DNA from: a virus
DNA length: 20,954 nucleotides
Virus record (IMG/VR): IMGVR_UViG_3300032820_000150
Span: 1-20,954 of that record
Strand: one strand, 5' to 3'
Numbering within the stretch: position 1 is the stretch's first letter; each line of letters begins with the position of its first letter. Position numbers and translations under genes: made by a program. Below the pieces are notes generated by a model, which saw only the letters and a program-made list of their open reading frames with translations, was not told the origin of the DNA and did not search any database. Positions 1,620 through 14,712 of the stretch are shown one piece after another.

Positions 1620-1993
1620 TAAAAGAAAGAGAATTTACTGAATATATAATTATTCACCATTCAAATACTTCAGATGACAGAGATTTAGGCCTTGAAGATT
1701 TAAAAGATTCAAAGTATCACTTCATTATTCGGCGTAATGGGTTGATTGAAATTGGTTTAGACAGTGATGCTGAGGGGGAATATCACACAGAGTCAATTGA
1801 CATCTGTCTCATAGGAAAATCTGAATTTGACGAGCGCCAGTTTGAGGGTCTGCGAGATCTAGTTCAGTTAACATTACGTCTTCATCCTGATTGTAAGATA
1901 GTAGGTCATGGAGATCTTGACGATACAGATTGTCCTGGATTTGATGTTGTTAAGTGGTTCAGCGAAGCCATTCCTTCCATTCATCGCCCATAA
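1616..1993 (+). CDS. N-acetylmuramoyl-L-alanine amidase (T7 lysozyme/PGRP type), endolysin
   Basis: A 125-residue Amidase_2 domain. It should hydrolyse the bond between N-acetylmuramic acid and L-Ala in peptidoglycan. Zn ligands are visible: His14 in IIIHHSNT, His98 in VGHGDL and Cys106 in TDCPGFDV, matching His17, His122 and Cys130 of T7 lysozyme. Tyr34 in YHFIIRRNG is the likely catalytic Tyr; Thr104 stands where T7 lysozyme has Lys128. No wall-binding domain or signal peptide is present, so release needs the upstream holin. T7 lysozyme also inhibits T7 RNA polymerase, but no such polymerase gene is seen here. The last 35 nt overlap, antisense, the end of the SNF2 helicase gene. Confidence 0.92.
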   Translation: MIKEREFTEYIIIHHSNTSDDRDLGLEDLKDSKYHFIIRRNGLIEIGLDSDAEGEYHTESIDICLIGKSEFDERQFEGLRDLVQLTLRLHPDCKIVGHGDLDDTDCPGFDVVKWFSEAIPSIHRP

Positions 1994-3401
1994 TTTGGGC
2001 AGCAATCTGTTTCTTATTCTTTAAAGACTTTATAATTAAATTATCTACAGTTTTCAATGTAGTAATATCTATATAGTTTACATTCCTAGTCTGTCCTATT
2101 CTGTGCGCGCGGTCCTCTGATTGTATTCGATGTTCTAAGTTATAACTATTACTGTAGTAAATAACAGTATTAGCAGCTTGCAAATTAAGACCAAATCCGG
2201 CAGTTGCTGGATTAGCGACAAAGAATCTAGCTTCTCCATGAGTAAAAGCCGTAATATTTCTTTCTCTATCTTTATCAGAAATAGCTCCCCAATACTCAAC
2301 TACTTGTTCTTCTCCATATTTATTTCTTAATTCTTTAGCAATCTCCCTTAGATTGGCTCTATAACATGCCCAAATAATGCACTTGTTAGCCACCTCTTCT
2401 GTGAGTTCTAAAAGAGCTGGCATCCTATTATTTTTGAGATGAGTCACATTACCTTCATTATCTATGAGATGCCCACAAACAATCTGATGTAACTTTGCCA
2501 GCATTGATAATTTATTAGGCACAGTTACGACTGTCTTTTCTAGTGCAGTAAAGCATAGATTCTTCATCTCTGTGTATGCCTTAATTTGTTCTTTTGTCAT
2601 GTCGATATAGCGATACTGATACGTTTTTGCTGGGAGATCTAAGCAGTCATCTTTTTTAACTCTATAGCTAAATGTCTTTATTATTTCATTAAGCTCTTCT
2701 GTTCTTTGAAAACCTACTACTTTCCTAAAAGATCGTCCTCCAAGATTCATGTTAGACATGATTGCATATCTATTTCTAAAACTATAATAAGAAGAATATC
2801 CTAAGTAAGATTCATCTAAAAATTGAGCTTGACTATATAAATCCAAAGGGTCTCTTGTAATCGGCTCTCCAGTCAAGATACGACGATAATCAACCATTGT
2901 GCCAAGGAGCGTGATTGCCTTTGTCCTCTTTGCCCGAGGATTTTTAATCGTAGTTGACTCATCAACAACCATGAGAATCCTACCAGACAAAACTAAGTTC
3001 CGAGTCCAGCGTACTCCTCTTTCACTGCTAAAAGCTTCTACGTTCATAATGATAATACGTAGATCATCCTTAAGTAATTTAATATCTTCAAGCTTTTCTT
3101 TTTCTTCTTTTCTTGGGCTAGCTGACCAAACAGCACAGCGATATACTACGTGCTCTGGAAGATGAGCTGGAATTTCATTAAGCTCCCAGTTTCGATAAGC
3201 GCCCTTCGGCGCGATAATAAGTAAGGTATTAATCTCACCTTTATCGTACAAATAAGCGGCGTTATCTAAAATTACCTTAGATTTTCCTGTCCCCATCTCC
3301 ATAAATAAGGCAAAAGACTCTTTTTCCTTGGAAATGTTCCAAGCTTTCAATTGGTGTACAAAAGGATCCGTTTTAAATGGATATGGTTTACTATGCGACA
3401 T
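1959..3401 (-). CDS. SNF2/SF2-family DNA helicase or translocase
   Basis: A 480-residue superfamily 2 ATPase. Motif I is MEMGTGKSK (residues 34-42, Lys40), motif Ia is IIAPKGAYRNW (62-72), motif II is VVDEST (145-150, a DEST variant of DEAH), motif III is LTGEP (176-180), and motifs V-VI are GFGLNLQ and QSEDRAHRIGQ (427-437), the latter highly typical of SNF2 proteins. It lacks accessory domains and is compact for the family. Phage relatives, loosely analogous to T4 UvsW, remodel replication or recombination intermediates. It is the last gene of the leftward replication operon, 48 nt downstream of the UvrD-type helicase, and its 3' end overlaps the amidase gene. Confidence 0.9.
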   Translation of the reverse strand: MSHSKPYPFKTDPFVHQLKAWNISKEKESFALFMEMGTGKSKVILDNAAYLYDKGEINTLLIIAPKGAYRNWELNEIPAHLPEHVVYRCAVWSASPRKEEKEKLEDIKLLKDDLRIIIMNVEAFSSERGVRWTRNLVLSGRILMVVDESTTIKNPRAKRTKAITLLGTMVDYRRILTGEPITRDPLDLYSQAQFLDESYLGYSSYYSFRNRYAIMSNMNLGGRSFRKVVGFQRTEELNEIIKTFSYRVKKDDCLDLPAKTYQYRYIDMTKEQIKAYTEMKNLCFTALEKTVVTVPNKLSMLAKLHQIVCGHLIDNEGNVTHLKNNRMPALLELTEEVANKCIIWACYRANLREIAKELRNKYGEEQVVEYWGAISDKDRERNITAFTHGEARFFVANPATAGFGLNLQAANTVIYYSNSYNLEHRIQSEDRAHRIGQTRNVNYIDITTLKTVDNLIIKSLKNKKQIAAQIMGDEWKEWLR

Positions 3402-3449: not shown

Positions 3450-4922
3450 CTACAGCTCAAAATACATGTTTGTGTTCGGTTGCACAATATGGAGCGATTT
3501 TCGCGCTCTGGTGACCGCAACGTAAAAAACTCTAATCTCATCATCAGGAAGCGTGTGCATTTCTCGATAGGTGCGGGGTGCGACATCAGTTAATAATAGC
3601 ACATGGTCAGCTTCACCACCTTTAACGCCATGAACTGTACTAATCTTGATCCTCGGTTCTCGAGTCAAGTCTTCAGATTTTTTCCAAAGCATAATATAAT
3701 ACTCTCTTCTTTTCGGATTGATCTTATCTAACCGTTTATACCACAAACCCTTTTCAAAGTTAAAGTCTGCTAAGGTAAAGTATTTTTCAGGATCTATCCC
3801 TCTTGGACATCTTTCTGACATATAACGATAGATAAGCTTTATCTCACTTCCCAAGATAGATTCTCCATTAGATAATCTTTCCCAAGCATTAATAGCGTCA
3901 AATGTCTCAGAGTCCAACGGAGATTTTTGTCCTACAATAAGATAAGGATAGCCATTCTTAATGCAGATATTTTCTAGTTGGTGTAGCATATAACCATTCC
4001 TTGCCAAAAGATACCAGCTGTCTTTACCTATATCTACATCTTCTGGATCCATATACCAACAAACTTCCCCTTGCTCATCTCTAGGTTCAAACTTTTTAGG
4101 TATCCTTGACTTAATTCTTAAGTTTAACTTTGTGGCTAACTCCCATATAGAATTAGGTACTCTAAAAGAATGGTTTAAAATAGTGCTCTTTCCACTTAAT
4201 TTAATAAATTGTTCTACATCTGCGCCAGCCCAACGATAAATAGCTTGGTCGTCATCGCCAGCTATATAGACTATCTCTACTTCTTTACTTAACTTATTAA
4301 TAATATCCCACTGCAAAGAAGATAAATCTTGCGCTTCATCTACAAATAAGATACGAAGTTTAGGAAAATTTTCTTGTTCTAAAAAATTTAACAACATATC
4401 AGTATAATCAATAATCTTTCTCTTTTTCTTGTATTCTCTTAAAGCTCTTTCTAATCTTTCTAATTCAAACCAATCTATACTATCATCATTATATTCTTGG
4501 TAAACTCCTTCGATTGGCGTTCTTTTCATACGAGCTAAATTCTCAAGAAAAAATAGCTTATCACCAGGCTTCATACCAAACATTTGTCCTTCTTCTAATT
4601 TTCCTCCTTGGACTTCTAATCCAAGCATATCTCCAAGCTCTCTATAGTGGCTGTGCGTCATCACATCTCCTCTTCGTAAACCAAGTTGCTTAAAACATAG
4701 ACTATGTATTGTACGAAAGTAAGGTAGATCTTTTTCATCATACTTAAATTTCTCATAAGCTCTCTCTTTAGCTTCTTCCGCGGCTTTACGAGTAAAAGCT
4801 AAATAACCTATATGTTGAGGAAGTACACCACTATTCAAATGACTTTCAACCAAACTTAAAAGTTTAGTTGTTTTTCCTGTTCCTGGTGGACCTATTATTA
4901 CGTTTAGATTTGCGTGCTCCAT
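3450..4922 (-). CDS. UvrD/Dda-like superfamily 1A DNA helicase
   Basis: A 490-residue SF1 helicase, expected to unwind DNA 3'-5' if UvrD-like or 5'-3' if Dda-like. Motif I is IIGPPGTGKTT (9-19), motif Ia is YLAFTRKAAEEA (40-51), then FRTIHSL (69-75), motif II is FVDEAQD (193-199), motif III is AGDDDQAIYRWAGA (221-234), motif IV is NHSFRVP (250-256), motif V is STVHGVKGGEADHV and motif VI is YVAVTRARKSL near the C terminus. It is shorter than UvrD/PcrA (about 720 residues), implying reduced 1B/2B insertions. There is no DnaB-type helicase in the operon, so this or the SNF2 protein may serve at the fork. A GAGAAGAG ribosome binding site precedes the ATG. Confidence 0.9.
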   Translation of the reverse strand: MEHANLNVIIGPPGTGKTTKLLSLVESHLNSGVLPQHIGYLAFTRKAAEEAKERAYEKFKYDEKDLPYFRTIHSLCFKQLGLRRGDVMTHSHYRELGDMLGLEVQGGKLEEGQMFGMKPGDKLFFLENLARMKRTPIEGVYQEYNDDSIDWFELERLERALREYKKKRKIIDYTDMLLNFLEQENFPKLRILFVDEAQDLSSLQWDIINKLSKEVEIVYIAGDDDQAIYRWAGADVEQFIKLSGKSTILNHSFRVPNSIWELATKLNLRIKSRIPKKFEPRDEQGEVCWYMDPEDVDIGKDSWYLLARNGYMLHQLENICIKNGYPYLIVGQKSPLDSETFDAINAWERLSNGESILGSEIKLIYRYMSERCPRGIDPEKYFTLADFNFEKGLWYKRLDKINPKRREYYIMLWKKSEDLTREPRIKISTVHGVKGGEADHVLLLTDVAPRTYREMHTLPDDEIRVFYVAVTRARKSLHIVQPNTNMYFEL

Positions 4923-4972
4923 CTCTTCTCATACCCATCATTATTAATTGATACCTAAATTCATCCCATATA

Positions 4973-6487
4973 TTAAAATGGAATATCTTCTTTATTTTCT
5001 TTAACTTCTTTCGGAACTTCATATCCTTCCTCCTGTTTTTGAAAAGCTGCAATTGACCATAGATTTACTCCTTTTCCTTTCATATTCCAAAAATGATGTT
5101 CAGCTCCTCGTTGTTTCAAGCATGAAGTCACTTGATAAACTTTAAAGTCTCTGAAGTGCTGCCTATCAAAGAAGGCCATCAAGTCTGAAATTCTAAAGTA
5201 ATGCTTTCCATCTTCTGTCCATGGCTTTCCTAATAATATTTCATCTTTACTAAGCGCCTGCACTCTACTTGTACAAAATCTTTCAACCAACTCAAACAAT
5301 TGCCCTACTGCACTAGCATCTGCTGGGGCTTCAATCACTGTAAGACTTTCAAACAGGTTATTAATAAGTTGGTTCCAGGCGTTATCGCTCATTTTGGCAG
5401 GCATCATATTTAATTTTTCCATGCATCTTTTCTGGAATCTTCTTTGATTTTGAAGATCATCAGTTTCTAATTCTATTCTTCCTGTTCCTTCTATATCTAG
5501 AAACCAGATTGGAGGGTTAGAATTATATTTTGTAAGTGAATGAATAGCTGGCATCTGGCCATCATTTCCAATTCCATGCTTTCTAAGTTTACACATTGCG
5601 GCATTACAATAAGGAGCAATAGGAGCTCGACTACAAGTGTACTGATAAGTCTTCTTATCAGCTGATTTAATTACAGTTAGAACTTCTGTACTGGTTAAAG
5701 GAGGGTCCATGAACTTTATATTATACCTTTCCACCTCTGCGCGCCAAGTATCTGGAAAGGCTTTGCGGGCATAGACTGCTAAGTTAAAAAGTCCATTGTT
5801 TCTCGTACCTTCAGGGAACCCTTGTTTAGTCAGGACTTGAAGGCAAGGAGGCCCCTCCTTTAATTCACTGTTAGTTTTAATTTTGAAATTCTCTATTTCT
5901 TCAAAAGAATATTTCTTGACAACATTAATAAACTCTTCAGCTGAAAGTTTATTTCCAGCACTATCTAATCCATATCTTTCAGTCTTTTTAGCATCAAAAT
6001 AAGGCATGTTAATCCACCCTCCAACATCTCCACGAGAAGCTAGAATTTGAATTTGCTTTGGAAAAATTTCACTTCCCCCAAATCCTAATATAGAAGAAAA
6101 TTCTTCAAGCTTAGTCTTCATAATCTTTGCAGGCATCCATTCCTCACAAAATAAATATAAATGCGCGCCACCCGACTTTGAACGACATACAATCAAGGGT
6201 AACTTCAACTTGGCTATCTTTAATGCTAACTTTCTTAAATCTAAATCTTTATATTGGTCCACATCTATCGCCCCAAACTTGACTTGCGATTGGTCGTTAA
6301 TAGGAATAATTCCTAAACCTTTTTTCCCATCAAGATGGTCGATCCAATGTTGCGATGTGACTTCTTCTCTTACTGTTACAGCCTTGCCCGTGAGTTTCCC
6401 ATCGGCGCGAGAGTCTTTTACCTCATACGCGCCATGGGCACGTTCAAGACCGGAGAAAAGGTGACCAAATTCTCCGGCCTGAACCAT
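4973..6487 (-). CDS. Archaeo-eukaryotic-type (AEP/PrimPol) DNA primase
   Basis: A 504-residue protein. The N-terminal half is an AEP catalytic domain: FGAIDVDQY (71-79; Asp75 and Asp77 as metal ligands), SKSGGAHLYLF (103-113, the S-x-H motif with His109) and SEIFPKQ (139-145, Glu140). It resembles the TOTE-type AEP primases. Residues 211-310 form a PriCT-like region with four Cys (215, 285, 294, 299) in a PPC...C...C...C arrangement ending in KHGIG, which probably binds Zn or an Fe-S cluster. The extreme C terminus is KEDIPF, like the tip of bacterial SSB. Its ATG overlaps the stop of the upstream SSB candidate (TAATG). It should synthesise primers for the family A polymerase. Confidence 0.85.
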   Translation of the reverse strand: MVQAGEFGHLFSGLERAHGAYEVKDSRADGKLTGKAVTVREEVTSQHWIDHLDGKKGLGIIPINDQSQVKFGAIDVDQYKDLDLRKLALKIAKLKLPLIVCRSKSGGAHLYLFCEEWMPAKIMKTKLEEFSSILGFGGSEIFPKQIQILASRGDVGGWINMPYFDAKKTERYGLDSAGNKLSAEEFINVVKKYSFEEIENFKIKTNSELKEGPPCLQVLTKQGFPEGTRNNGLFNLAVYARKAFPDTWRAEVERYNIKFMDPPLTSTEVLTVIKSADKKTYQYTCSRAPIAPYCNAAMCKLRKHGIGNDGQMPAIHSLTKYNSNPPIWFLDIEGTGRIELETDDLQNQRRFQKRCMEKLNMMPAKMSDNAWNQLINNLFESLTVIEAPADASAVGQLFELVERFCTSRVQALSKDEILLGKPWTEDGKHYFRISDLMAFFDRQHFRDFKVYQVTSCLKQRGAEHHFWNMKGKGVNLWSIAAFQKQEEGYEVPKEVKENKEDIPF

Positions 6488-7224
6488 TAGAAGTCGCCTG
6501 TAGTTTCAGACTCTGAGCTTTCAGTTTTACTAGGAGGCGCGAGCTTTACTTGATCTTTACTTACACCCTCATGAAAACTTCGAGCTGTTTCATATTGGAG
6601 TTGTTCTGTAACAGGTTTCTCAACTTCGATATTCCAACCGAACCAAGATCCTTTGTCATTTTTTTCTTGCATAGATGTTAACTTATATCTATGACTAAAT
6701 GACGGAGGCGTTACAAATTTTCCAGTACTATCTTCGATTTTAAGTCCCATCATCATGCTATTCCAGCGTCTTGCTTTCTTTAATTGAGTGGAACTCATAC
6801 TGATAACAGCTTGCTCGTTATTTTTTAGTAATACAAAATAATAAGCAGTCTCGATTAGATTATTTCCGTTATCAAGAATGATTTCTCCTCGATCATTCCG
6901 AGCCTTTTGAGATTGGTCACTGCCTATAGGATGCTCTCCTACATAGCCGCCGCCAGTCTCGCGAGGTTTCCACTCTACAAATACTCTCTTATATGCACAA
7001 GGCACAACTTCAAGAGACTCGTAGAGATCATTCGACACAGTATTATAGATCATGCCAGCTTTCGCTCCCTCGACATTTTCTAACTGTGGACTCGTTTTTT
7101 GAAGCAAAACTAAATAAGGAATGGCAAGATCTTGAGACGTTATACCTTCGAAGCCCAGGTCTGCATCTTTTGAAAAATCAATAGATTTAGAATTAGGCTT
7201 TGTTTCAGATACTTCAGTACTCAT
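6487..7224 (-). CDS. Conserved phage replication protein, possible ssDNA-binding protein
   Basis: A 245-residue soluble protein lacking a catalytic motif. It has a central beta-rich domain (for example LAIPYLVLLQKTSPQLE, YVGEHPIG, SWFGWNIEVEKP) and an acidic, Ser/Glu-rich C-terminal tail ending in SESETTGDF. Acidic tails ending in an aromatic residue are typical of phage and bacterial SSBs (T7 gp2.5, T4 gp32, E. coli SSB). It lies directly upstream of primase with stop and start codons overlapping, and near the polymerase and helicases. I recognise it as a family common beside phage polymerases, but the ssDNA-binding role is inferred from tail and position rather than from a visible OB fold. 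Confidence 0.55.
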   Translation of the reverse strand: MSTEVSETKPNSKSIDFSKDADLGFEGITSQDLAIPYLVLLQKTSPQLENVEGAKAGMIYNTVSNDLYESLEVVPCAYKRVFVEWKPRETGGGYVGEHPIGSDQSQKARNDRGEIILDNGNNLIETAYYFVLLKNNEQAVISMSSTQLKKARRWNSMMMGLKIEDSTGKFVTPPSFSHRYKLTSMQEKNDKGSWFGWNIEVEKPVTEQLQYETARSFHEGVSKDQVKLAPPSKTESSESETTGDF

Positions 7225-7225
7225 A

Positions 7226-7744
7226 TTATTTACCTTTCTTAATAGTAGCTTTCTGCCCTATGTAGACACCCAACAGATCATGAGGCAGGGCTTTACCTCT
7301 TTCTGTTTGTTCTCTGATAAATGCTGAGAGTGACTGCGGGTGTACAGACACTCTATCAGAAAAACTGTAGCCTTTTTCTTGAAGAAAATCTTTGGCATAT
7401 TTAGCTTTAAGATCTTCACCACGACCAAATTGAACTTTTACCTCGTTCTTAATTAAGTCTCCATGATTATTATCTCTTAGCCATTCGAAAGCTTTTTCTG
7501 TATTCTCTCTACTAATATGACCACGATATATTGATCTTATCGAAACAGAACTTCCATCTTTTAACTTAACTTCTGCTAAGCCAAGCTCTGCAAATTTTTC
7601 TGGAAGGATTTTCTCTTCCAATTCTCTTAATTTTGTTATCGCTCTATCAAGAGATTCTTGACAATCTTGTACTATTAATGTTTGAGCTTCTATGTCTAAA
7701 GCTAATTTAGAAACCGCCTTTAACTGATCATCTGATAAATCCAT
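7226..7744 (-). CDS. Conserved phage protein of the replication block
   Basis: A 172-residue protein. Residues 1-55 form a coiled coil (leucine-rich, charged, through KLRELEEKILPEKFAE). Then follow LGLAEVKLKDGSSVSI, an EWLRDNNHGDLIKNEV segment, VQFGRGEDLKAKY, and a C-terminal VHPQSLSAFIREQTERG with LPHDLLGVYIGQKATIK. This combination is widespread in phages next to SSB or polymerase genes; I associate it with DUF7173, from memory and unverified. Biochemical role is unknown. It lies 1 nt upstream of the SSB candidate and overlaps the next upstream gene by 17 nt, so it is co-expressed with replication proteins. Confidence 0.65.
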   Translation of the reverse strand: MDLSDDQLKAVSKLALDIEAQTLIVQDCQESLDRAITKLRELEEKILPEKFAELGLAEVKLKDGSSVSIRSIYRGHISRENTEKAFEWLRDNNHGDLIKNEVKVQFGRGEDLKAKYAKDFLQEKGYSFSDRVSVHPQSLSAFIREQTERGKALPHDLLGVYIGQKATIKKGK

Positions 7745-8264: not shown

Positions 8265-8668
8265 TCTTCTTTCTCATATATCTTTTGAGTAATCTCATTC
8301 CAGCGCCAAGGTTTTCCCCATATATAGGCTCTAGAAAATTCACTCAAGTTAAATTTAATCTTATCACTATTAATTGAATTATACACTTCTTTTATTAAAA
8401 TATTACTTCTAATTAAATAAAGTAGTTCATTTTTTCTAATCAATACCTTTACATTCTCTCTATTTTTCTTTGCTTCTTGCATAAAAGCTAACTGAGAACT
8501 TTGAAAATAGACAGTCTGTCCAGAGGCAATTTTTAATTCTAACCACACCATAACCCCACGATGACAAGCATGGATGTCAGGTACTCCAGCCATTCCTAAA
8601 TTTTCTATCCGGCATAAATGACCTGGAATATTCTTACGAATTAGCTGCCATAAATCTTTTTCTGTCAC
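8261..8668 (-). CDS. VRR-NUC-type PD-(D/E)xK nuclease
   Basis: A 135-residue protein whose first 65 residues match a small VRR-NUC nuclease: RIENLGMAGVPDIHAC with Asp31, VWLELKIASG with Glu44 and Lys46 (the PD...ExK core) and FQSSQLAFMQE with Gln59 (the conserved Q after the core). Stand-alone phage VRR-NUC proteins are thought to act as structure-specific nucleases, such as Holliday-junction or branched-DNA resolvases. The C-terminal half (70-135) is basic and less conserved. It overlaps the polymerase gene by 4 nt (ATGA), consistent with coupled translation and a role in replication or in resolving concatemers before packaging. Confidence 0.8.
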   Translation of the reverse strand: MTEKDLWQLIRKNIPGHLCRIENLGMAGVPDIHACHRGVMVWLELKIASGQTVYFQSSQLAFMQEAKKNRENVKVLIRKNELLYLIRSNILIKEVYNSINSDKIKFNLSEFSRAYIWGKPWRWNEITQKIYEKEE

Positions 8669-10563
8669 CTACATTCTCCCCACGATGGGCCTTTCTCTAA
8701 TGTTACCTTTAAAGGCACCTCTAATTCTACACAGTTTTCCATGATCTGGGCAATCTTTTTTAGTTCGTTTTCATCTTTATAAGAAATATCTATTTCATCA
8801 TGTACCTGTAAATGAGGGACAACATTTAATTCAGTATATAAGTCTAACATAGCCTTCTTTGTTAAATCTGCTGAGGCGCCTTGAATAAGAGCATTTAGCG
8901 CCTTATGAGTATAAGCTCTTCTTAAAGGTCTACCTTTCCACACTTTTTCTGCATCAATCTTTCTTAAAGGCATTTCCTTGTTAGGCCATCTTAAAGTAGA
9001 ATCAGCTGGCTCCCAATAGTCAAAATGTCTTTTTCTTCCAAGAAGAGTTTTAATCTCACCTCTATATAAGGCAGCTTTAGAGGCTTCATGCATTAAACCT
9101 TTTACAAACGGAACATTGCCATGATATTTCTCCAATAGAATAGTTGCAGCATTATAATTTAAATTAAGCATCTGTCCTAGCTTAAATGTTCCCATTCCAT
9201 ACATAATACCTAAGTTAATTGTCTTCGCAGTCTTTCTATCTATATCTGCCATTTCTGCTACTAATGTATGGAAGTCGGCTTCCTTTTGTTTATAGGCTTC
9301 ACAAGCTTCTTTTGAACCTCTAATGTTACGCAGCACAGCATAATGAACTAGCATCCTAGGTTCTTGTTGATTATAATCTAAGCGAGCCCACTGGTGTCCT
9401 TCTTCCGGAAGAAATAATGACCTAACCAATGGGCCCCAATACTCGTCTCGAGCCGGAATCTGCTGTAAATTAGGGTTACTAGAACTAAACCGTCCACTTC
9501 TAGTCCCTTCAGAATCTCTTCTTAGTTGATGAAATTGAGCGTGGATACGTCCTTTAACAGACATATCAAGGCACACTTTTTTTATAAAATCTCTCCTCAT
9601 CTTATTAACTTTTCGAAACTCAGCGACCATTTCCAAAAACGGATCTTTGCTATTACCCATAAATTCTGCAGTAAATGAAGGATTGCCAGCTTCAGTAACT
9701 GGGAACCAGGTTCTAGTTTTTTCGCAAGCTAATGCAAGTTGCTCGCTGCTCCAAGGTTCAACAGGAAATCCGGCTTTCTCACGAAGCTTGACTAGCATCT
9801 CTCCTTCTTTCTTTTCATACCTAGAGTTTAATTGTTCTGCCTTATCTATATTAATTCTTACACCCTTAAATCTCATATCTAATATTAATGGAATTAGTGC
9901 GGTCTCCAATCTAAAAATTTCTTCTAATCCATTTTCTTTTAAAATTTCAATTTGTTTTTGAAATATCTCCAAAGTATTTACAGCATCAATTTCAGCATAT
10001 CCACCTACGTAGTGAGGAGGTAATTGCCACATATCTTTTTTAGGATCTAAGTTATAAGCTTCTGCGGCTGCCTTTAATAAGGTTTCATCTTTTCCACGTC
10101 CCAAATATCTTTGACTAAGAACTTCTAAGCTATATCCTTCTTTTCTTTCTTCATCTATTAAAGGCTCGGCTACTTGAATATCATAAAAATGACCTTTAAC
10201 ATTAATACCAACGGAACGCAGCCATTCTAGATCATAAAGAATATTAGCGCCAACTTTAAAAATATCAGTCTCTAATTGCTCTTTTAACCAAGCAAGGACT
10301 TTTTTCCTATCTAAATTTCCGCCCCCTTCATGACCGATTGGATAATATCCCTTAAACCCTGTATCAGTAGCAAGAGAAACTCCGATAAGCTTACCATCAT
10401 TTCTTACGCCACCAGGTCCCATTGTCATTAGGTTTGGGTCACAAGTTTCACAGTCAAACGCAATCAGCTTAGCTTTTGTCAAGTCCGGGAAGTCCGGTGG
10501 AGGGGTCCACCTTGATTCCGGAGTCCACAACGGCATTTGCCGGGGTCCATAATCGACGGGCAT
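8665..10563 (-). CDS. DNA polymerase I (family A) with 3'-5' exonuclease
   Basis: Residue numbers below count from an ATG at 10584 (639 aa). The exonuclease domain has Asp44/Glu46 (FDCET), NILYDLEW with Asp118 and the YAEID motif with Asp200. The polymerase domain has motif A (LDYNQQEPR, Asp403), motif B (R450, K454, L458, Y462 in KTAKTINLGIMYGMG) and motif C (VHDE, Asp596). There is no 5' nuclease domain. Leu458 aligns with E. coli Phe762. I prefer the ATG at 10563 because AAAAGGA lies 9 nt upstream, whereas the ATG at 10584 has only a distant GAGG. Either way the gene overlaps the 3' end of the deaminase gene by 95 to 116 nt. Confidence 0.97.
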   Translation of the reverse strand: MPVDYGPRQMPLWTPESRWTPPPDFPDLTKAKLIAFDCETCDPNLMTMGPGGVRNDGKLIGVSLATDTGFKGYYPIGHEGGGNLDRKKVLAWLKEQLETDIFKVGANILYDLEWLRSVGINVKGHFYDIQVAEPLIDEERKEGYSLEVLSQRYLGRGKDETLLKAAAEAYNLDPKKDMWQLPPHYVGGYAEIDAVNTLEIFQKQIEILKENGLEEIFRLETALIPLILDMRFKGVRINIDKAEQLNSRYEKKEGEMLVKLREKAGFPVEPWSSEQLALACEKTRTWFPVTEAGNPSFTAEFMGNSKDPFLEMVAEFRKVNKMRRDFIKKVCLDMSVKGRIHAQFHQLRRDSEGTRSGRFSSSNPNLQQIPARDEYWGPLVRSLFLPEEGHQWARLDYNQQEPRMLVHYAVLRNIRGSKEACEAYKQKEADFHTLVAEMADIDRKTAKTINLGIMYGMGTFKLGQMLNLNYNAATILLEKYHGNVPFVKGLMHEASKAALYRGEIKTLLGRKRHFDYWEPADSTLRWPNKEMPLRKIDAEKVWKGRPLRRAYTHKALNALIQGASADLTKKAMLDLYTELNVVPHLQVHDEIDISYKDENELKKIAQIMENCVELEVPLKVTLEKGPSWGECR

Positions 10564-10966
10564 TTTTCCATATCCTTTTCGCATCTAAGTTAATATATTC
10601 CTCATCAAACAAAAGTTCTCGACAAGACGTGTTTAATAATAATTTAACGCATGTAATGCACGGACTTAACGTCAAATAAGCTTTACTAATCTTTTGAGTA
10701 TCTCTGCACTGTAATAAAGCGTTTTGTTCAGCATGAATTGCCTCACATTTATCCAGTCCCTTTCCACTAGTATATTTTGCACCTGGACATGGTTTAGTAA
10801 TACAATGTACTTGGCCTTTTCCAACTCCATTATAACCAGTGGCAACAACAAAATTATTGTCATCGATAAGTATGCAGCCAACTTGTCGTCTTACACAAGT
10901 ACTTCTGGTACTAACAAGATGCGCCATTGACAAGAAATATGAGTCTCTACTTGGACGTCGCATCAA
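10469..10966 (-). CDS. dCMP deaminase
   Basis: A 165-residue Zn-dependent cytidine/deoxycytidylate deaminase converting dCMP to dUMP. Zn ligands are His78 in CEAIHAEQNAL (Glu80 as proton donor) and Cys103/Cys106 in SPCITCVKLL. The N-terminal region (RRQVGCILIDDNNFVVATGYN) is typical of dCMP deaminases, and extra Cys residues (24, 31, 55, 60, 74) may form a second structural site. It supplies dUMP and sits two genes downstream of the thymidylate-synthase-family gene. The last roughly 33 residues (rich in Trp, Pro, Gly, Asp) are encoded in DNA that also encodes the N terminus of DNA polymerase in another frame. Confidence 0.9.
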   Translation of the reverse strand: MMRRPSRDSYFLSMAHLVSTRSTCVRRQVGCILIDDNNFVVATGYNGVGKGQVHCITKPCPGAKYTSGKGLDKCEAIHAEQNALLQCRDTQKISKAYLTLSPCITCVKLLLNTSCRELLFDEEYINLDAKRIWKNARRLWTPANAVVDSGIKVDPSTGLPGLDKS

Positions 10967-11159
10967 ATATCCTTCTTATAATATACATTCGTATAGCAGA
11001 CAAGAAAAAGTAAGTTAATGTGATTAATCCAGCTTCATTATAAGTAAAGGTAATACCAAAGAAGTACGGCATCCCAAACAGTGTGAAAGTATAACTAATC
11101 ACTAAACCTACTGTTACTTGAGTCATTGACTCAATGAACGACATCAATCTTGTCTGCAT
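10947..11159 (-). CDS. Small phage membrane protein (DUF7220-like)
   Basis: A 70-residue protein with two hydrophobic segments (about 14-34 and 41-58), starting QTRLMSFIESMTQVTVGLVI and ending in the basic YIIRRIFDA. The pattern of RLMS-x-IE, two membrane helices and a terminal RR-x-F matches a small membrane protein family widespread in phages that I know as DUF7220 (from memory). Its function is unknown. It overlaps the deaminase gene by 20 nt and the upstream TS-family gene by 16 nt, so it lies inside the nucleotide-metabolism cluster. A role at the inner membrane is likely. Confidence 0.7.
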   Translation of the reverse strand: MQTRLMSFIESMTQVTVGLVISYTFTLFGMPYFFGITFTYNEAGLITLTYFFLSAIRMYIIRRIFDATSK

Positions 11160-11935
11160 TTATCTAACAAATCTCCATTCTCAGCTCTTTCAATAAGCCA
11201 CTCTACCAAGTTATGTGGGCTATTAAAACCTATAAAAGGGTTCTGTGACTCAGTTACTAGAACTATTTTTTCGTCATAGTCGCCAGAACGCAATTTCTTT
11301 ACCTTATCGAAATCGTCCCAATAAAGATGTTGACTCCCAGCATTAATATAGAGCATACCAAGTGTCAAAGAATAACCTTTCCTATGTTCCCACAATAATG
11401 AGAGATAGTGCGAGATCATGGTAAAGTTAAACACATCATATGGCCATCCCAACCAGATATCACTCGATCTCATGGTCGCAATGCAATGAAGTCTTCCATC
11501 CCTTATTAAGAACTGTAATGCAACAGTGCAAGGAATATCCTTACTTTGTCTTGGATTCTTACGCCACAAAGTCATTACTGCCTGTCGAGAAAACTCATCC
11601 TCAACCAAACAGTCTACGATGTATGTAAGTTGATCCACGACCCTCGGTCCATAAGCACCGGAGAAGAAATATCCATCATCAGAAAAACTAGCGATTTCCT
11701 TTGAGAATGGTTTTAAACTTGCTACAGTATTTCCGCCAATCAAAATGGTAGCGGCTTCTGCAGCCATGAATTTATAACCTAATTTTCTCTCCTTGTACGT
11801 TACAAATGGATGAGACATTGGAACTGCTGTCTGAAAATTAACGTGCTCTCGGGTGTCTAAGTCTTTTGGATTGAACTCCTTTCCCGTATTGAGCAAGTGC
11901 AGGGCAGTATGATACCAAACATCATTTGCTGTCAT
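11144..11935 (-). CDS. Thymidylate-synthase-family dNMP hydroxymethylase (probable dCMP hydroxymethylase)
   Basis: A 263-residue member of the thymidylate synthase superfamily. Seen: Arg117 (SRQAV), catalytic Cys136 in DIPCTVALQFLIRDG, the phosphate/base region MRSSD (155-159), GWPYDVF and AGSQHLY (His203, Tyr205). In true thymidylate synthase the residue after GLPF is Asn (Asn177 in E. coli) and recognises uracil. Here it is Asp167, as in T4 dCMP hydroxymethylase (Asp179), and GS replaces the TS GD before H-x-Y, as in T4 gp42. I therefore favour 5-hydroxymethylation of dCMP using methylene-tetrahydrofolate. ThyA or dUMP hydroxymethylase remain alternatives. It overlaps the kinase gene by 4 nt. 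Confidence 0.75.
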   Translation of the reverse strand: MTANDVWYHTALHLLNTGKEFNPKDLDTREHVNFQTAVPMSHPFVTYKERKLGYKFMAAEAATILIGGNTVASLKPFSKEIASFSDDGYFFSGAYGPRVVDQLTYIVDCLVEDEFSRQAVMTLWRKNPRQSKDIPCTVALQFLIRDGRLHCIATMRSSDIWLGWPYDVFNFTMISHYLSLLWEHRKGYSLTLGMLYINAGSQHLYWDDFDKVKKLRSGDYDEKIVLVTESQNPFIGFNSPHNLVEWLIERAENGDLLDKCRQD

Positions 11936-12945
11936 ATTATCACCTCCTTCAAATCATTATATAAAGGGTCCCCCGTCTTTAGGCTACCTAAAAATCTCCT
12001 ATAGTACTGAGGGTGTTTTAAAACCGCATGGGTTTTAATCTCGTTTTTATCTAAAGCTTCTTTTGCTTCTTTTCCTAATGCAATAATCTTGATATGACCA
12101 TTTGCAGCCTTAGGAAATCGTAAATCAAGTTGTCCTGTTATTGGATGATGTATATTTGTCCAAGCACAATTTCTTTCTTTGATCCACAATTTATTTAATA
12201 TAGTTGTAAAGCTTAAACTGCAATTTCCGTATTCAAAAAATGGCCAAAACAATCTTTTATATTTAGGGTTCACTTTATCACCTACAAATAGATATTTAGC
12301 AAATTGCTTATGTCCTAAGATGTTATGCTCATTTGGATTTAAAGCAGTTAGCCACTGTGTCATTCTCATCTTTTTTGCGGCATGCATAATCATATCAATA
12401 AACATATCTTTGTGCGCACCCCACTTTTCAATGGTGTAAGGTAAAAAATAAGGAATCTCTTTAGCGCCTCCATTAAGAATAATTTGATCAATATAATTTC
12501 CTTTATCTTTATGGTCTTTGTCTCCATTATAAAACTTTGTGTATAGCTCGCTAACTTCTTTAATATCTTCATACATCTCTGTGCGCTCTTCTTTCATCTT
12601 TTTAAATCTTTTAGCAGTATTTTCATCAGGCAGGCACATCACGTAAACTGCACCGTATTTTAAACCGGCTCGTTCTAAGAACCTTCCTTGAAGCGGCCAA
12701 GCACTACCACCTCGATATATACTTGCATAGCAGCCTTCACTCGGCCACCAACGATCAAGAATGACGTTATGAGTTACCGCTGCTTTTCCAGCAACCCTAA
12801 TTGCCGCTGTATGGTAATCAAACATCCTGTCCTTGTATCTATAACCAAGGTGGAAATACTTAGTTTTTGGATACTTCTCTATAATTGCCTTCGCGAGAGT
12901 AGTCTTACCTACTGCATCGGGGCCATCTAAAACTATTATTCGCAT
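11932..12945 (-). CDS. dNMP-kinase-like P-loop protein fused to a UDG-superfamily-like domain
   Basis: A 337-residue two-part protein. Residues 1-160 resemble thymidylate/deoxynucleotide kinases: P-loop LDGPDAVGKTT (6-16), VILDRWWPSE (61-70) as the DR-x motif, and a lid-like KRFKKMKEERTEMY. Residues 218-337 look like a uracil-DNA glycosylase superfamily fold: LFVGDKVNP (219-227), AWTNIHH (261-267), IIALGKEAKEAL (287-298) and KHPQYYRRFLG (310-320), equivalent in order to the GE-x-PG, TN, LG-x-x-A and HPS motifs, though GE-x-PG is altered to GDKVN. The kinase would phosphorylate dNMPs, perhaps a modified one. The C-terminal domain may bind a base or nucleotide without glycosylase activity. Overlaps both neighbours by 4 and 10 nt. 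Confidence 0.7.
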   Translation of the reverse strand: MRIIVLDGPDAVGKTTLAKAIIEKYPKTKYFHLGYRYKDRMFDYHTAAIRVAGKAAVTHNVILDRWWPSEGCYASIYRGGSAWPLQGRFLERAGLKYGAVYVMCLPDENTAKRFKKMKEERTEMYEDIKEVSELYTKFYNGDKDHKDKGNYIDQIILNGGAKEIPYFLPYTIEKWGAHKDMFIDMIMHAAKKMRMTQWLTALNPNEHNILGHKQFAKYLFVGDKVNPKYKRLFWPFFEYGNCSLSFTTILNKLWIKERNCAWTNIHHPITGQLDLRFPKAANGHIKIIALGKEAKEALDKNEIKTHAVLKHPQYYRRFLGSLKTGDPLYNDLKEVII

Positions 12946-13319
12946 AAGTCTTTTAAGACAGGTGCTTTCCAGCCAACTGGCTTTACAACATCTATCTTTG
13001 ATCGTTTTGTTTTCATTCTAACTTTCTTCATATTTGTTTCATGGACTCTATCCCAGGCCTCTTCAAAATCAAAGCCCATAAGATAGGATGTGCCTAACGC
13101 CACATATACAGTATCAACTAACCCATCAAGAACCTGCACTTTATCATTTTCATAAATTCCTTTGAGTATCTCAGCAAGCTCCTCTTGTTGGTGACTGCAC
13201 CTAGCCAGCATGATTTCCTCTTCAAGCATTCTTGGGCGTCCAGCATATCCAAGCAGAAACTTTCGATGAAAGTCTTCTACGTCTCTGTAGAAACTTCCTT
13301 TTCTTCCGCGTTTGTACAT
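12936..13319 (-). CDS. MazG-like all-alpha NTP pyrophosphohydrolase
   Basis: A 127-residue helical protein with the all-alpha NTP-PPase pattern: QQEELAEIL (Glu46, Glu47, Glu50) and VLDGLVDTVYVALG (Asp65, Asp69), spaced like the Mg-binding EExxE...DxxxD helices of MazG/dCTPase proteins. FEEAWDRVHETNMKKV near residue 85-100 is typical of phage MazG-like and PRA-PH-like proteins. It should hydrolyse a (d)NTP to (d)NMP and pyrophosphate. Next to a dCMP hydroxymethylase candidate and a dNMP kinase, a dCTPase role as for T4 gp56 is attractive but inferred. It overlaps the kinase gene by 10 nt and the methyltransferase gene by 43 nt. Confidence 0.8.
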   Translation of the reverse strand: MYKRGRKGSFYRDVEDFHRKFLLGYAGRPRMLEEEIMLARCSHQQEELAEILKGIYENDKVQVLDGLVDTVYVALGTSYLMGFDFEEAWDRVHETNMKKVRMKTKRSKIDVVKPVGWKAPVLKDLCE

Positions 13320-14182
13320 TTTACTAACTCTCTCCAGTGTGTAGATGAACCAAGTCTGCCCTCAATCTTATCTATTGGTCCAAAGTTCCTTTCTTCGAGC
13401 TTTAATCGTCCACAAAATTGAGTCTCCCAAAGACAATTTCGGGAGTGTTGCGGGTAAAGCGGGGCAAATATCGTTGCGATATAATTGCTATCGTAATATT
13501 CTTTTAATTTGTCAAACATCTCTTCAGTCTTTAGATCCATGTGGATGCGATAATCTTTAATTGAGGCAAATGTCCCCCAATGATCTAGAATCTTGAATCC
13601 CATATGTTCTAAGAGAGAACCGAACGCCTCATAGGTCATCTCATTAACATGGTTTGCGGCGGCCCCTACCTTTTCATCCCAGCAAGGGGTCGAGAACCAG
13701 CATGTATTATCATCACTGACATGCTCGCCAATGTTGCCAAGTATTTTAATCGCGGTCCACGGCTCAACATGCTCTAGGACTTCAAAACAAGTAACATAGT
13801 TAGGTTTCCACCCTTCTCCCATTTTCATCTCAAACCATAATTTAAGGTCAAGGAGTGAAAAATCTTCATTCTGAATAAGTTTAGGTTGAAAGGTAGTCTT
13901 TTCAAACATCGAAGGAATTTCCATCGCGTTGAAATCCACACCTAAATATGACATAGGTGCGAGTCTCGAGGTCATTAAGGTACGAGCCAATGGCATGTCC
14001 TTTCCACATCCCACATCTAGAATATTGGCTTCTTTGTATCTTTTCTTGAGACTAAGATATTTCACCACATGCGTCCAGCGCAAGCAATGAGCAATATAAT
14101 CCCTATGGAGAAAACCTCGAGCCTCGGCTTGTACAATACTCAGATGAGTATTGTCGATCTCTTTGCCTCTTGCATTAGCCAT
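13277..14182 (-). CDS. Class I SAM-dependent methyltransferase
   Basis: A 301-residue Rossmann-fold methyltransferase. Motif I is ILDVGCGKDMPLA (54-66), the acidic residue at the end of strand 2 is Asp83 in YLGVDFN, and the post-motif region VTCFEVLEHVEPW (130-142) is typical of UbiE/UbiG-like small-molecule methyltransferases. No DNA methyltransferase NPPY/DPPY motif is seen, so a small-molecule or protein substrate is more likely than unmodified DNA bases. Residues 10-40 are helical and the last 60 residues are a family-specific extension. It is the second gene of the leftward operon. The substrate is unknown; context with nucleotide-modifying enzymes makes a modified nucleotide one option. 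Confidence 0.82.
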   Translation of the reverse strand: MANARGKEIDNTHLSIVQAEARGFLHRDYIAHCLRWTHVVKYLSLKKRYKEANILDVGCGKDMPLARTLMTSRLAPMSYLGVDFNAMEIPSMFEKTTFQPKLIQNEDFSLLDLKLWFEMKMGEGWKPNYVTCFEVLEHVEPWTAIKILGNIGEHVSDDNTCWFSTPCWDEKVGAAANHVNEMTYEAFGSLLEHMGFKILDHWGTFASIKDYRIHMDLKTEEMFDKLKEYYDSNYIATIFAPLYPQHSRNCLWETQFCGRLKLEERNFGPIDKIEGRLGSSTHWRELVKCTNAEEKEVSTET

Positions 14183-14456
14183 TGTTAGGCCTCTTTGTCA
14201 AAATCAGAAAACCAGCATCAACTAAGAGTTTCTGGTAATATGTTAAAATTCTATTTGCCCCACCCTTTTGCTTCGTCTTGACTAGTGTCTGCATGGCTTC
14301 TAAAAGAGCTGGCCGTTTTAATGCGCCCGCCTCTAAGAGAATCTTAGCAATATTGCGTGCTTGATTGGGTAAGGGAGGCCGCCTCTTATTTACATCTTCT
14401 ATAGTGAGCATCGACGGCATTTGATAAACCCACTTATTTTTTGTCTTTCTTCTCAT
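14175..14456 (-). CDS. Small basic protein, possible winged-helix
   Basis: A 93-residue protein that opens the large leftward operon. AGGAGA lies 6 nt before the ATG. The N terminus is very basic (RRKTKNKW). Residues 30-90 (ARNIAKILLEAGALKRPALLEAM, then ILTYYQKLLVDAGFLILTK) read like three helices followed by a short beta hairpin, as in small winged-helix DNA-binding proteins. First genes of phage early operons are often regulators, but no family is recognised. It overlaps the methyltransferase start by 8 nt. Confidence 0.6.
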   Translation of the reverse strand: MRRKTKNKWVYQMPSMLTIEDVNKRRPPLPNQARNIAKILLEAGALKRPALLEAMQTLVKTKQKGGANRILTYYQKLLVDAGFLILTKRPNNG

Positions 14457-14470
14457 ATCTTTCTCCTAAA

Positions 14471-14510
14471 AAGAGGGGGGCTGGAAACGGGAATCTCCGG
14501 AGCTCCCCTT
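14471..14510 (-). promoter_or_regulatory. GC-rich hairpin in the leader of the leftward operon
   Basis: AGGGGGGCT (14474-14482) pairs with AGCTCCCCT (14501-14509), 9 bp with one G-T wobble and an 18-nt loop. The loop side holds overlapping palindromes CTCCGGAG (14495-14502) and GGAGCTCC (14499-14506). In the leftward transcript the stem is followed directly by CTTTTT and then the AGGAGA ribosome binding site of the first gene. It could be an attenuator, an RNase-processing site or an operator; it also reads as a weak terminator on the minus strand. Confidence 0.45.
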
Positions 14511-14590
14511 AATTTAACATGAACATCATTTCAAAACAAGCACAAAGAGAAACAACTTATCCGAATAACTCCGTCGTGTTAACTCTAAGT

Positions 14591-14623
14591 ACTTAATATA
14601 TATAATAATTCTTCCAATAATAA
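14591..14623 (-). promoter_or_regulatory. Promoter-like motif for the leftward operon
   Basis: Read on the minus strand, this stretch holds TTGGAAGA (14610-14617) followed by ATTATTATATATATTA, nearly the same as the motif at 17367-17393 upstream of the rightward gene at 17418 (about 21 of 24 positions). It lies about 135 nt upstream of the first gene of the 12.5-kb leftward operon, before the leader hairpin. There is a TATAAT-like core but no good TTGACA element, so the promoter may use an extended element or a phage-modified polymerase. Confidence 0.5.
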
Positions 14624-14662
14624 AAGTAAACATTTATTTTACCTCTTTTTTAAAAAAAGAAG

Positions 14663-14712
14663 TGTACTTATAAAATCGGATGAAATATAATTATATTATA
14701 TGATAATATATA
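14663..14712 (+). promoter_or_regulatory. Probable promoter for the rightward gene at 14726
   Basis: A very AT-rich stretch with GAAGTG, TACTTATAAAAT (14666-14677) and two later TATA-rich blocks up to 14712 lies just before the ribosome binding site AGAAAGGAG (14712-14720). GAAG followed by ACTTAT resembles the GAAGACTTAT core of the repeated element at 18169. Weaker than the other copies; assignment rests mainly on position in a divergent control region. Confidence 0.35.

Follow-up and report, generated by a model that had tools for sequence, protein, structure and literature searches.

Phage T7 offers the closest described precedent for paired tails on replication proteins; the terminal phenylalanine of gp4 and the exchange of tails belong to what is known of that system, and the terminal phenylalanine of gp2.5 is reportedly important. 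The acidic C-terminal tails of T7 gp4 are reported to bind basic patches on the gp5 polymerase (PMC12593628, PMC8472574), and a third paper implicates the gp2.5 tail in binding both the polymerase and the primase-helicase (PMC5686142). In bacteria, the tip of the E. coli single-stranded DNA-binding protein (SSB) reads DDDIPF (PMC5872125). Among the matches listed in a search of open-licence titles and the beginnings of abstracts, none concerned an SSB-type tip on a phage primase.

We analyzed a 20,954-base virus record of IMG/VR, hereafter the window, in which such a tip is found (Table 1). The primase ORF begins with ATG and its 504 residues end in ...EVKENKEDIPF, the last codons being AAA GAA GAT ATT CCA TTT TAA; the KEDIPF ending claimed by an earlier, sequence-only reading was thereby borne out. 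Profile searches found both an AEP catalytic domain (PF22548 AEP-TOTE, 40.4 bits against a cut-off of 27) and PriCT_1 (PF08708, 23.3 bits, cut-off 21.1), and the protein matched phrog_21866, “primase,” with an E value of 2.7e-100. Its profile also matched PDB entries 7nqf/7nqd (E 2e-13), which carry the table name “TPR_REGION domain-containing protein” and which we take to be CAPP (CRISPR-associated Prim-Pol). Residues D75, D77, S105, and H109 were invariant in alignments A1 and A6, so the DxD and SxH-type motifs, presumably the catalytic motifs of an AEP primase, are retained; both aspartates and the histidine align with D and H of 7nqf. The AF2 model of the primase has a folded body (mean pLDDT 83.8), with block means of 58, 49, and 42 at its end and values below 50 at residues 487-492 and 496-504. 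KEDIPF has the make-up of an SSB-Ct type tip: acidic residues lead into hydrophobic-Pro-Phe, and together they form the free C-terminal end of a tail predicted to be disordered.

Table 1. Positions of the primase, its tail, and neighboring features in the window.
Feature	Position	Strand	Basis
SNF2-type helicase	1959..3401	-	PF00176 + PF00271
UvrD-like gene	3450..4922		
AEP primase, TOTE/CAPP-like catalytic domain + PriCT_1, 504 aa	4973..6487	-	PF22548, PF08708, phrog_21866
SSB-like tip KEDIPF of primase	4976..4993	-	ORF translation
Primase C-terminal tail, about residues 483-504, predicted disordered	4976..5041	-	AF2 pLDDT
Pam3 gp34-like protein, candidate phage ssDNA-binding protein	6487..7224	-	PF23977
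gp34 tip TTGDF	6490..6504	-	window-clade form; relatives mostly P-aromatic (27/39)
Pam3 gp33-like protein, adjoins gp34, without tip	7226..7744	-	PF23984, 98 bits
Family A DNA polymerase	8665..10584	-	PF00476, 200 bits

The stop codon of gp34 and the start of the primase have base 6487 in common. Beyond gp34 follow a gp33-like gene (PF23984), a gp32-like gene (PF23992), a nuclease-like protein, the family A polymerase, a dCMP deaminase, and a thymidylate-synthase-like protein; the other flank of the primase consists of the UvrD-like and SNF2-type helicases. Region 10469-14182 contains the dCMP deaminase and the thymidylate-synthase-like protein, a protein that weakly matches thymidylate kinase, another of PRA-PH (MazG-like) type, and also a methyltransferase, and is possibly a pyrimidine-hypermodification cluster (compare the relative L212, where “pyrimidine hmase” is annotated). 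No CRISPR gene was found among the ten window proteins scanned by profile. Constraint from an overlapping gene as the source of the tip was ruled out because 50 bases separate the tip from the UvrD-like gene; the one ORF that does cover it, a mechanical 62-aa TTG ORF at 4864..5052, has nothing in its favor.

We assembled 209 loci encoding primase homologues, drawn from IMG/VR and from named phages; two of the searches contributed their best 80 relatives, out of 597 and 141, respectively. Together with the window (L023), this resulted in 210 loci, 202 of them with a full C-terminus, which formed 42 clusters at 70% identity. Eight of the 210 were left out of the counts because their primase is truncated or short (L007, L008, L047, L058, L113, L198, L201, and L209); L008 does end KEDIPF. 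With the end of one member standing for each cluster, 16 of 42 clusters end in PF, 28 in an aromatic residue, and 37 in a large hydrophobic one, and counting by majority likewise gave 16 and 28 of 42. By member, 66/202 end in PF and 104/202 in an aromatic residue, and a single pelagiphage-type cluster, mostly ending IV, holds 78 of the 202. The SSB-like tip that had been read from this one primase is thus real and conserved. In the window's own cluster all seven members end in F and six in [IV]PF, the seventh (L006) ending ESVF, and in a close alignment of five sequences F504 is the only invariant residue beyond F482. The sequence-only reading had staked its proposal on conservation of the tail in homologues; this holds throughout the window's cluster and for the clusters with aromatic ends, and fails in 14 of the 42, where the ends include SDL, SIL, DML, EEM, DLN, and FRT and, in three Nanhaivirus-type clusters, GEA, GEA, and GQD.

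To compare the tip with the linker, we calculated mean pairwise identity over the last six positions and over the preceding sixteen in five clusters. Tip identity was higher in three (L059, 0.57 vs 0.17; L089, 0.66 vs 0.41; L120, 0.84 vs 0.64) and not above the linker in two (the window's, 0.66 vs 0.62; L063, 0.40 vs 0.40). Such variability would suit a reading in which nothing docks, the acidic tail serving solubility or charge shielding (holding the primase away from ssDNA, for instance) and drift accounting for the aromatic end; several of the 14 clusters without an aromatic end retain acidic residues (SDL, DML, EEM), and a tip no better kept than its linker in two of five clusters is consistent with it too. 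Set against this, the terminal P and F stand above linker conservation in the other three clusters while their codons change synonymously (CCA TTT, CCG TTT, CCC TTC), and the tip recurs in dissimilar primases, described below. With the absence of acidic-aromatic ends from ten other families as a further counterargument, we consider the reading without docking very improbable.

Those families come from a scan of the neighborhood, in which complete mechanical ORFs of at least 80 aa were grouped and families present in at least 5 loci were kept, yielding 12 families from one locus per cluster plus seven phage records, with four duplicates removed. Two families carry the tip: gp34, with aromatic ends in 38/44 and PF in 24/44, and the primase, with aromatic ends in 29/43 and PF in 17/43. 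Both tails are therefore aromatic at the family level, and the window itself has DIPF and GDF. In the ten other families, which include gp33, both helicases, and the polymerase, 4/198 ends are aromatic, 0/198 PF, and 0/198 acidic-aromatic; the gp33 family has 0/45 aromatic ends. Two of the ten (11 and 5 members) resemble antisense ORFs, and none of the four aromatic ends is theirs. The tip is confined to the primase and gp34 among these 12 neighborhood ORF families. From composition, a PF end is expected at about 0.0016 and a [DE][ILVA]PF end at 6e-5; these odds, along with the lack of PF ends in the 198 ORFs of other families, ruled out a chance origin of the tip.

The product of the gene next to the primase belongs to the Pam3 gp34 family (PF23977, 220.8 bits against a cut-off of 27) and ends ETTGDF. 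The sequence-only reading had remarked that this adjacent SSB candidate ends differently from the primase. That is correct for TTGDF in the window and does not extend to most relatives, in which gp34 bears the tip: among the gp34 proteins paired with primase clusters, 35/39 end in an aromatic residue and 22/39 in PF, with ends including DDDIPF, DDVPF, EDIPF, and EAPF. TTGDF is therefore a minority form.

The AF2 model of gp34 (pLDDT 91.8) had as its best solved fold match the phiC31 recombination directionality factor (RDF; Z 8.6 over 150 residues). Ranks 2-10 (Z 5.2-6.6) included BRCA2 (6.6), T4 gp32 (5.7), RB69 gp32, Rim1, and RPA, with bacterial SSBs lower in the list. We take the BRCA2, gp32, Rim1, and RPA entries to be OB proteins that bind ssDNA. 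The best Foldseek match, PrgE, was weak (E 0.0019; none below 0.001), and a search of PDB with the gp34 sequence gave no believable match. Each fold match is weak; taken together they favor an OB-like fold, and on this prediction gp34 is probably a phage SSB. PF00436, the profile of the canonical bacterial SSB, matched neither gp34 nor any of 23 phage records, some of them fragments (the control was positive in 10/14 genomes), and a canonical SSB elsewhere in the phage was rejected on this result. Relatives of gp34 were present in 506 of 50,697 phage records.

Several observations on gp34 stand apart from its tip. The place of the phiC31 RDF at the top of the fold matches hints at a common fold between RDF and the phage SSB candidate. 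In MW202510 the gp34 frame (L212:13812-14597) is unannotated, an opposite-strand CDS (13914-14663) covering most of it, and in PP931173.1 and PV067731.1 a gp34 homologue is annotated “primase.” A text search of PMC9382816 turned up nothing on Pam3 gp34, the two gp34 hits being to that of Pam1.

Next, we compared primase and gp34 tips within each phage, using 39 pairs. When relatedness is ignored, the last three residues are more alike than in shuffled pairs (mean BLOSUM score 5.9 vs 3.0, p 1e-4), and the last residue is the same in 23/39 pairs vs 17.5 shuffled (p 0.002). Partial Mantel tests gave p values of 0.12, 0.05, 0.03, and 0.02 for the last 1, 2, 3, and 4 residues, and simulation of independent tip evolution on the tree gave 0.20, 0.053, 0.015, and 0.008 for the last 1-4. 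Matching within a phage is a tendency that goes moderately beyond common ancestry, and for the last residue alone it does not. Matching pairs (primase/gp34) include KAEF/HSEF, ENIV/QDIV, PNY/GNY, PPFV/IPFA, and EDIPF/EDIPF. The window clade is a mismatch, with DIPF on the primase and GDF on gp34, and in 10/42 clusters gp34 is aromatic but the primase is not, three of them Nanhaivirus-type (L013, L020, and L021) and the others L022, L028, L036, L038, L045, L048, and L063. As an acidic-aromatic end is a simple target, two tips with matching letters need not use one pocket.

The sequence-only reading had looked to the host, suggesting that the primase may dock onto host SSB-interacting proteins or displace SSB from them. 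The DIPF tip would then enter host SSB-tip pockets (DnaG, Pol III chi, PriA, ExoI, etc.) and either recruit those proteins to phage primers or compete with host SSB for them. The DEDIPF and EEIPF forms are indeed near the bacterial DDDIPF. As described in PMC5872125, the DnaG pocket salt-bridges the terminal Phe carboxylate, its basic residues face the acidic ones, and other SSB partners have pocket features in common with it. A free KEDIPF end could fit a pocket of the DnaG type, and in the window's lineage the host-like DIPF tip could bind host pockets.

Where hosts could be compared, the letters point the other way. The E. coli phage ECML-117 ends its primase in KDEF and its gp34 in AEEF, unlike the DDDIPF of its host. 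The SSBs of Salmonella and Providencia hosts presumably end in DDDIPF as well; their phages have KSEF and KAEF on the primase and TEM and SEF on gp34, and it is another, small phage protein that bears DDDIPF there. With GDGF and AEQF in Serratia phages, neither the primase nor the gp34 ends of the phages of these four hosts contain Pro. Because both ends differ from the DDDIPF form in those phages, the letters of the primase tip appear to go with the phage's gp34 and not with the host form. Two further points count against capture of host proteins: pelagiphage-type tips end NIV or DIV, and in Kokobel2, PMBT28, and SH-Ab 15497 it is a separate small phage protein that ends DDDIPF or DDDLPF. The presence of the tip on gp34 too makes a primase-specific mimic unnecessary. 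We therefore do not treat host mimicry as the leading general function, and consider capture of host proteins by the tip unlikely; the earlier proposal is partly supported, and we turn it away from the host and towards gp34, the SSB candidate that the phage itself encodes.

The small DDDIPF/DDDLPF proteins lie in phages that also encode gp34 (L211:2578-2907, L213:30248-30589, and L214:31377-31676), and those of Kokobel2 and SH-Ab 15497 (L211 and L214) match phrog_18154, “single strand DNA binding protein,” without a Pfam match. In phiVC8, the annotated SSB p31 (L215:28677-29192, minus strand) continues for 14 residues past DDDIPF, which, as annotated, places this tip away from the free end. 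A scan of genome contigs returned a Patescibacteria MAG fragment (L235) with a cut-off primase and a gp34 ending EEHM, and a Neorhizobium contig, perhaps a provirus, with a distant primase relative ending KPPI (L236:4851-6491) and no gp34 within 11 kb of it. At L104:6001-8192, a primase match of 513 residues extends over 2,192 bases, which may reflect an insertion in the gene.

Two other primase classes in phages with gp34 end alike. The AEP-D5 primase (DUF5906) ends KPPF, KDPF, KPPF, and KDPF in Pseudomonas YuA, Ab18, Bordetella CN2, and PaMx11, whose gp34 proteins end KPVF, KAPF, KPVF, and KTPF. The AEP-like N-terminal domain RepB_primase scored above the cut-off in Ab18 and below it in YuA, so distant kinship of this class to the window primase is possible. 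VapE-type proteins end GEDF, KDEF, GDGF, GDAF, HAGF, and GGGF in SN, ECML-117, MyoSmar, Carpasina, Karil-Mokiny-1, and Pluto, with gp34 ends of AEEF, AEEF, AEQF, ADNF, AENF, and ADNF. A VapE-like domain was matched in Pbunavirus SN, the other VapE-type proteins being picked up by similarity, and the class is called primase by annotation alone (SN, SP13, and MyoSmar). With small profiles of 4 and 5 sequences, HHalign detected no homology between either of these classes and that of the window primase (the two probabilities were 0.6 and 2.4%), and one weak region common to D5 and VapE (27.6%).

For these classes we sampled 110 IMG/VR loci (one search giving the best 80 of 157), from which 42 contigs of at least 29.8 kb were chosen by hand, near-duplicates mostly being left out. 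We found gp34 in 38 of the 42 (VapE 14/15, D5 24/27; the four unmatched contigs may be fragments), and all 38 gave pairs, one with gp34 split across the record ends. The VapE class (14 pairs, 12 clusters) has F on both proteins in 12/12 clusters and P at position -2 in 0/12 of each; tips matched with p 0.004-0.006 by shuffling that ignores relatedness. The D5 class (24 pairs, 20 clusters) has both ends aromatic in 16/20, with P at -2 in 12/20 primases and 16/20 gp34 proteins; shuffling, again ignoring relatedness, gave p 0.24, 0.12, and 0.02 for the last 2, 3, and 4 residues. In phiVC8, which has a PrimPol-D5 primase, neither the primase nor gp34 ends in an aromatic residue. We tentatively suggest, with confidence somewhat short of even, that three primase classes each acquired a copy of the gp34 tip, that the tips co-evolve, and that the tip serves as an entry ticket to a widespread gp34-based replisome. 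The tip bearers in this suggestion are primases or primase-associated helicase proteins, and two of the classes are without detectable homology to the window's.

For the function of the tip, we lean slightly, at a little better than even confidence, towards docking of twin primase and gp34 tips on a common acceptor within the replisome of the phage itself, by analogy with T7. The flexible acidic tail of the primase, with its hydrophobic-aromatic tip, would be the twin of the gp34 tip; the two would dock, by turns or in competition, into one phage replisome acceptor, and the primase would thereby be kept at gp34-coated single strands, close to the polymerase or helicase. We infer three parts of this from models and from the analogy, namely gp34 as an SSB, the docking, and the acceptor.

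As to the acceptor, the family A polymerase is a candidate by its likeness to the T7 case. Polymerase class differs among these phages (the window encodes a family A enzyme, whereas that of Pbunavirus SN and of ECML-117 is annotated as Pol III alpha), while gp34, the gene in the gp33 position, and a helicase recur side by side in the phages examined (gp33 in L218-L220 by position); the gp34 fold, gp33, and the SNF2-type helicase are therefore at least equal candidates. The helicase core has a net charge of +10 by charge count, which makes it a candidate acceptor, although net charge, at -4 for the gp34 core, is not decisive. A special case of the twin tails has gp34 itself as the acceptor: the primase tail would fill the OB groove of gp34, which gp34's own tail would fill when DNA-free, and the primase would be recruited directly, much as PrimPol is by RPA. 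Acidic C-termini lie on neighboring molecules in crystals of the Enc34 SSB and likewise of T7 gp2.5, according to PMC5686142, and gp34 accompanies all three primase classes, its gene adjoining that of the primase in the window with one base in common. Against a gp34 groove stand the net negative core of gp34 (mean -4.5 by charge count) and the distance of more than 10 kb between primase gene and gp34 in those D5 and VapE records that were examined for gene order, and we regard this special case as rather unlikely. If the twin-tail reading is true, the paired-tail principle of T7 reaches a large phage group, the relatives of gp34, and phrog_2402/PF23977, a family without an assigned function, gains a probable role.

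Among known systems, CRISPR-associated Prim-Pol and TOTE AEPs resemble the window primase in the catalytic domain, as seen in the 7nqf/7nqd profile match and PF22548; the window primase differs in lying in a phage replication module and in bearing a C-terminal tip. Human PrimPol likewise combines primase and polymerase and is brought to an SSB through short motifs (PMC5457501), but those motifs bind RPA, whereas here a free C-terminus resembles the tip of the SSB candidate. The bacterial SSB-Ct shares the acidic residues, the aliphatic-Pro-Phe at the extreme end, and a predicted disordered tail; here, in contrast, both the primase and the SSB candidate carry the tip, and Lys is among the preceding residues. 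The likeness to T7 is that within a single phage a flexible acidic tail, predicted in our case, closes both the SSB, or here its candidate, and the primase, and that there is a family A polymerase too. No T7 chain was matched in the PDB sequence searches with the gp34 and primase profiles. Unlike in T7, the window primase is of AEP type and has no DnaB-like helicase fused to it, the tips frequently take the xPF form of bacterial SSB, and two other primase classes end alike. The principle is already known from T7; the setting and the breadth are new.
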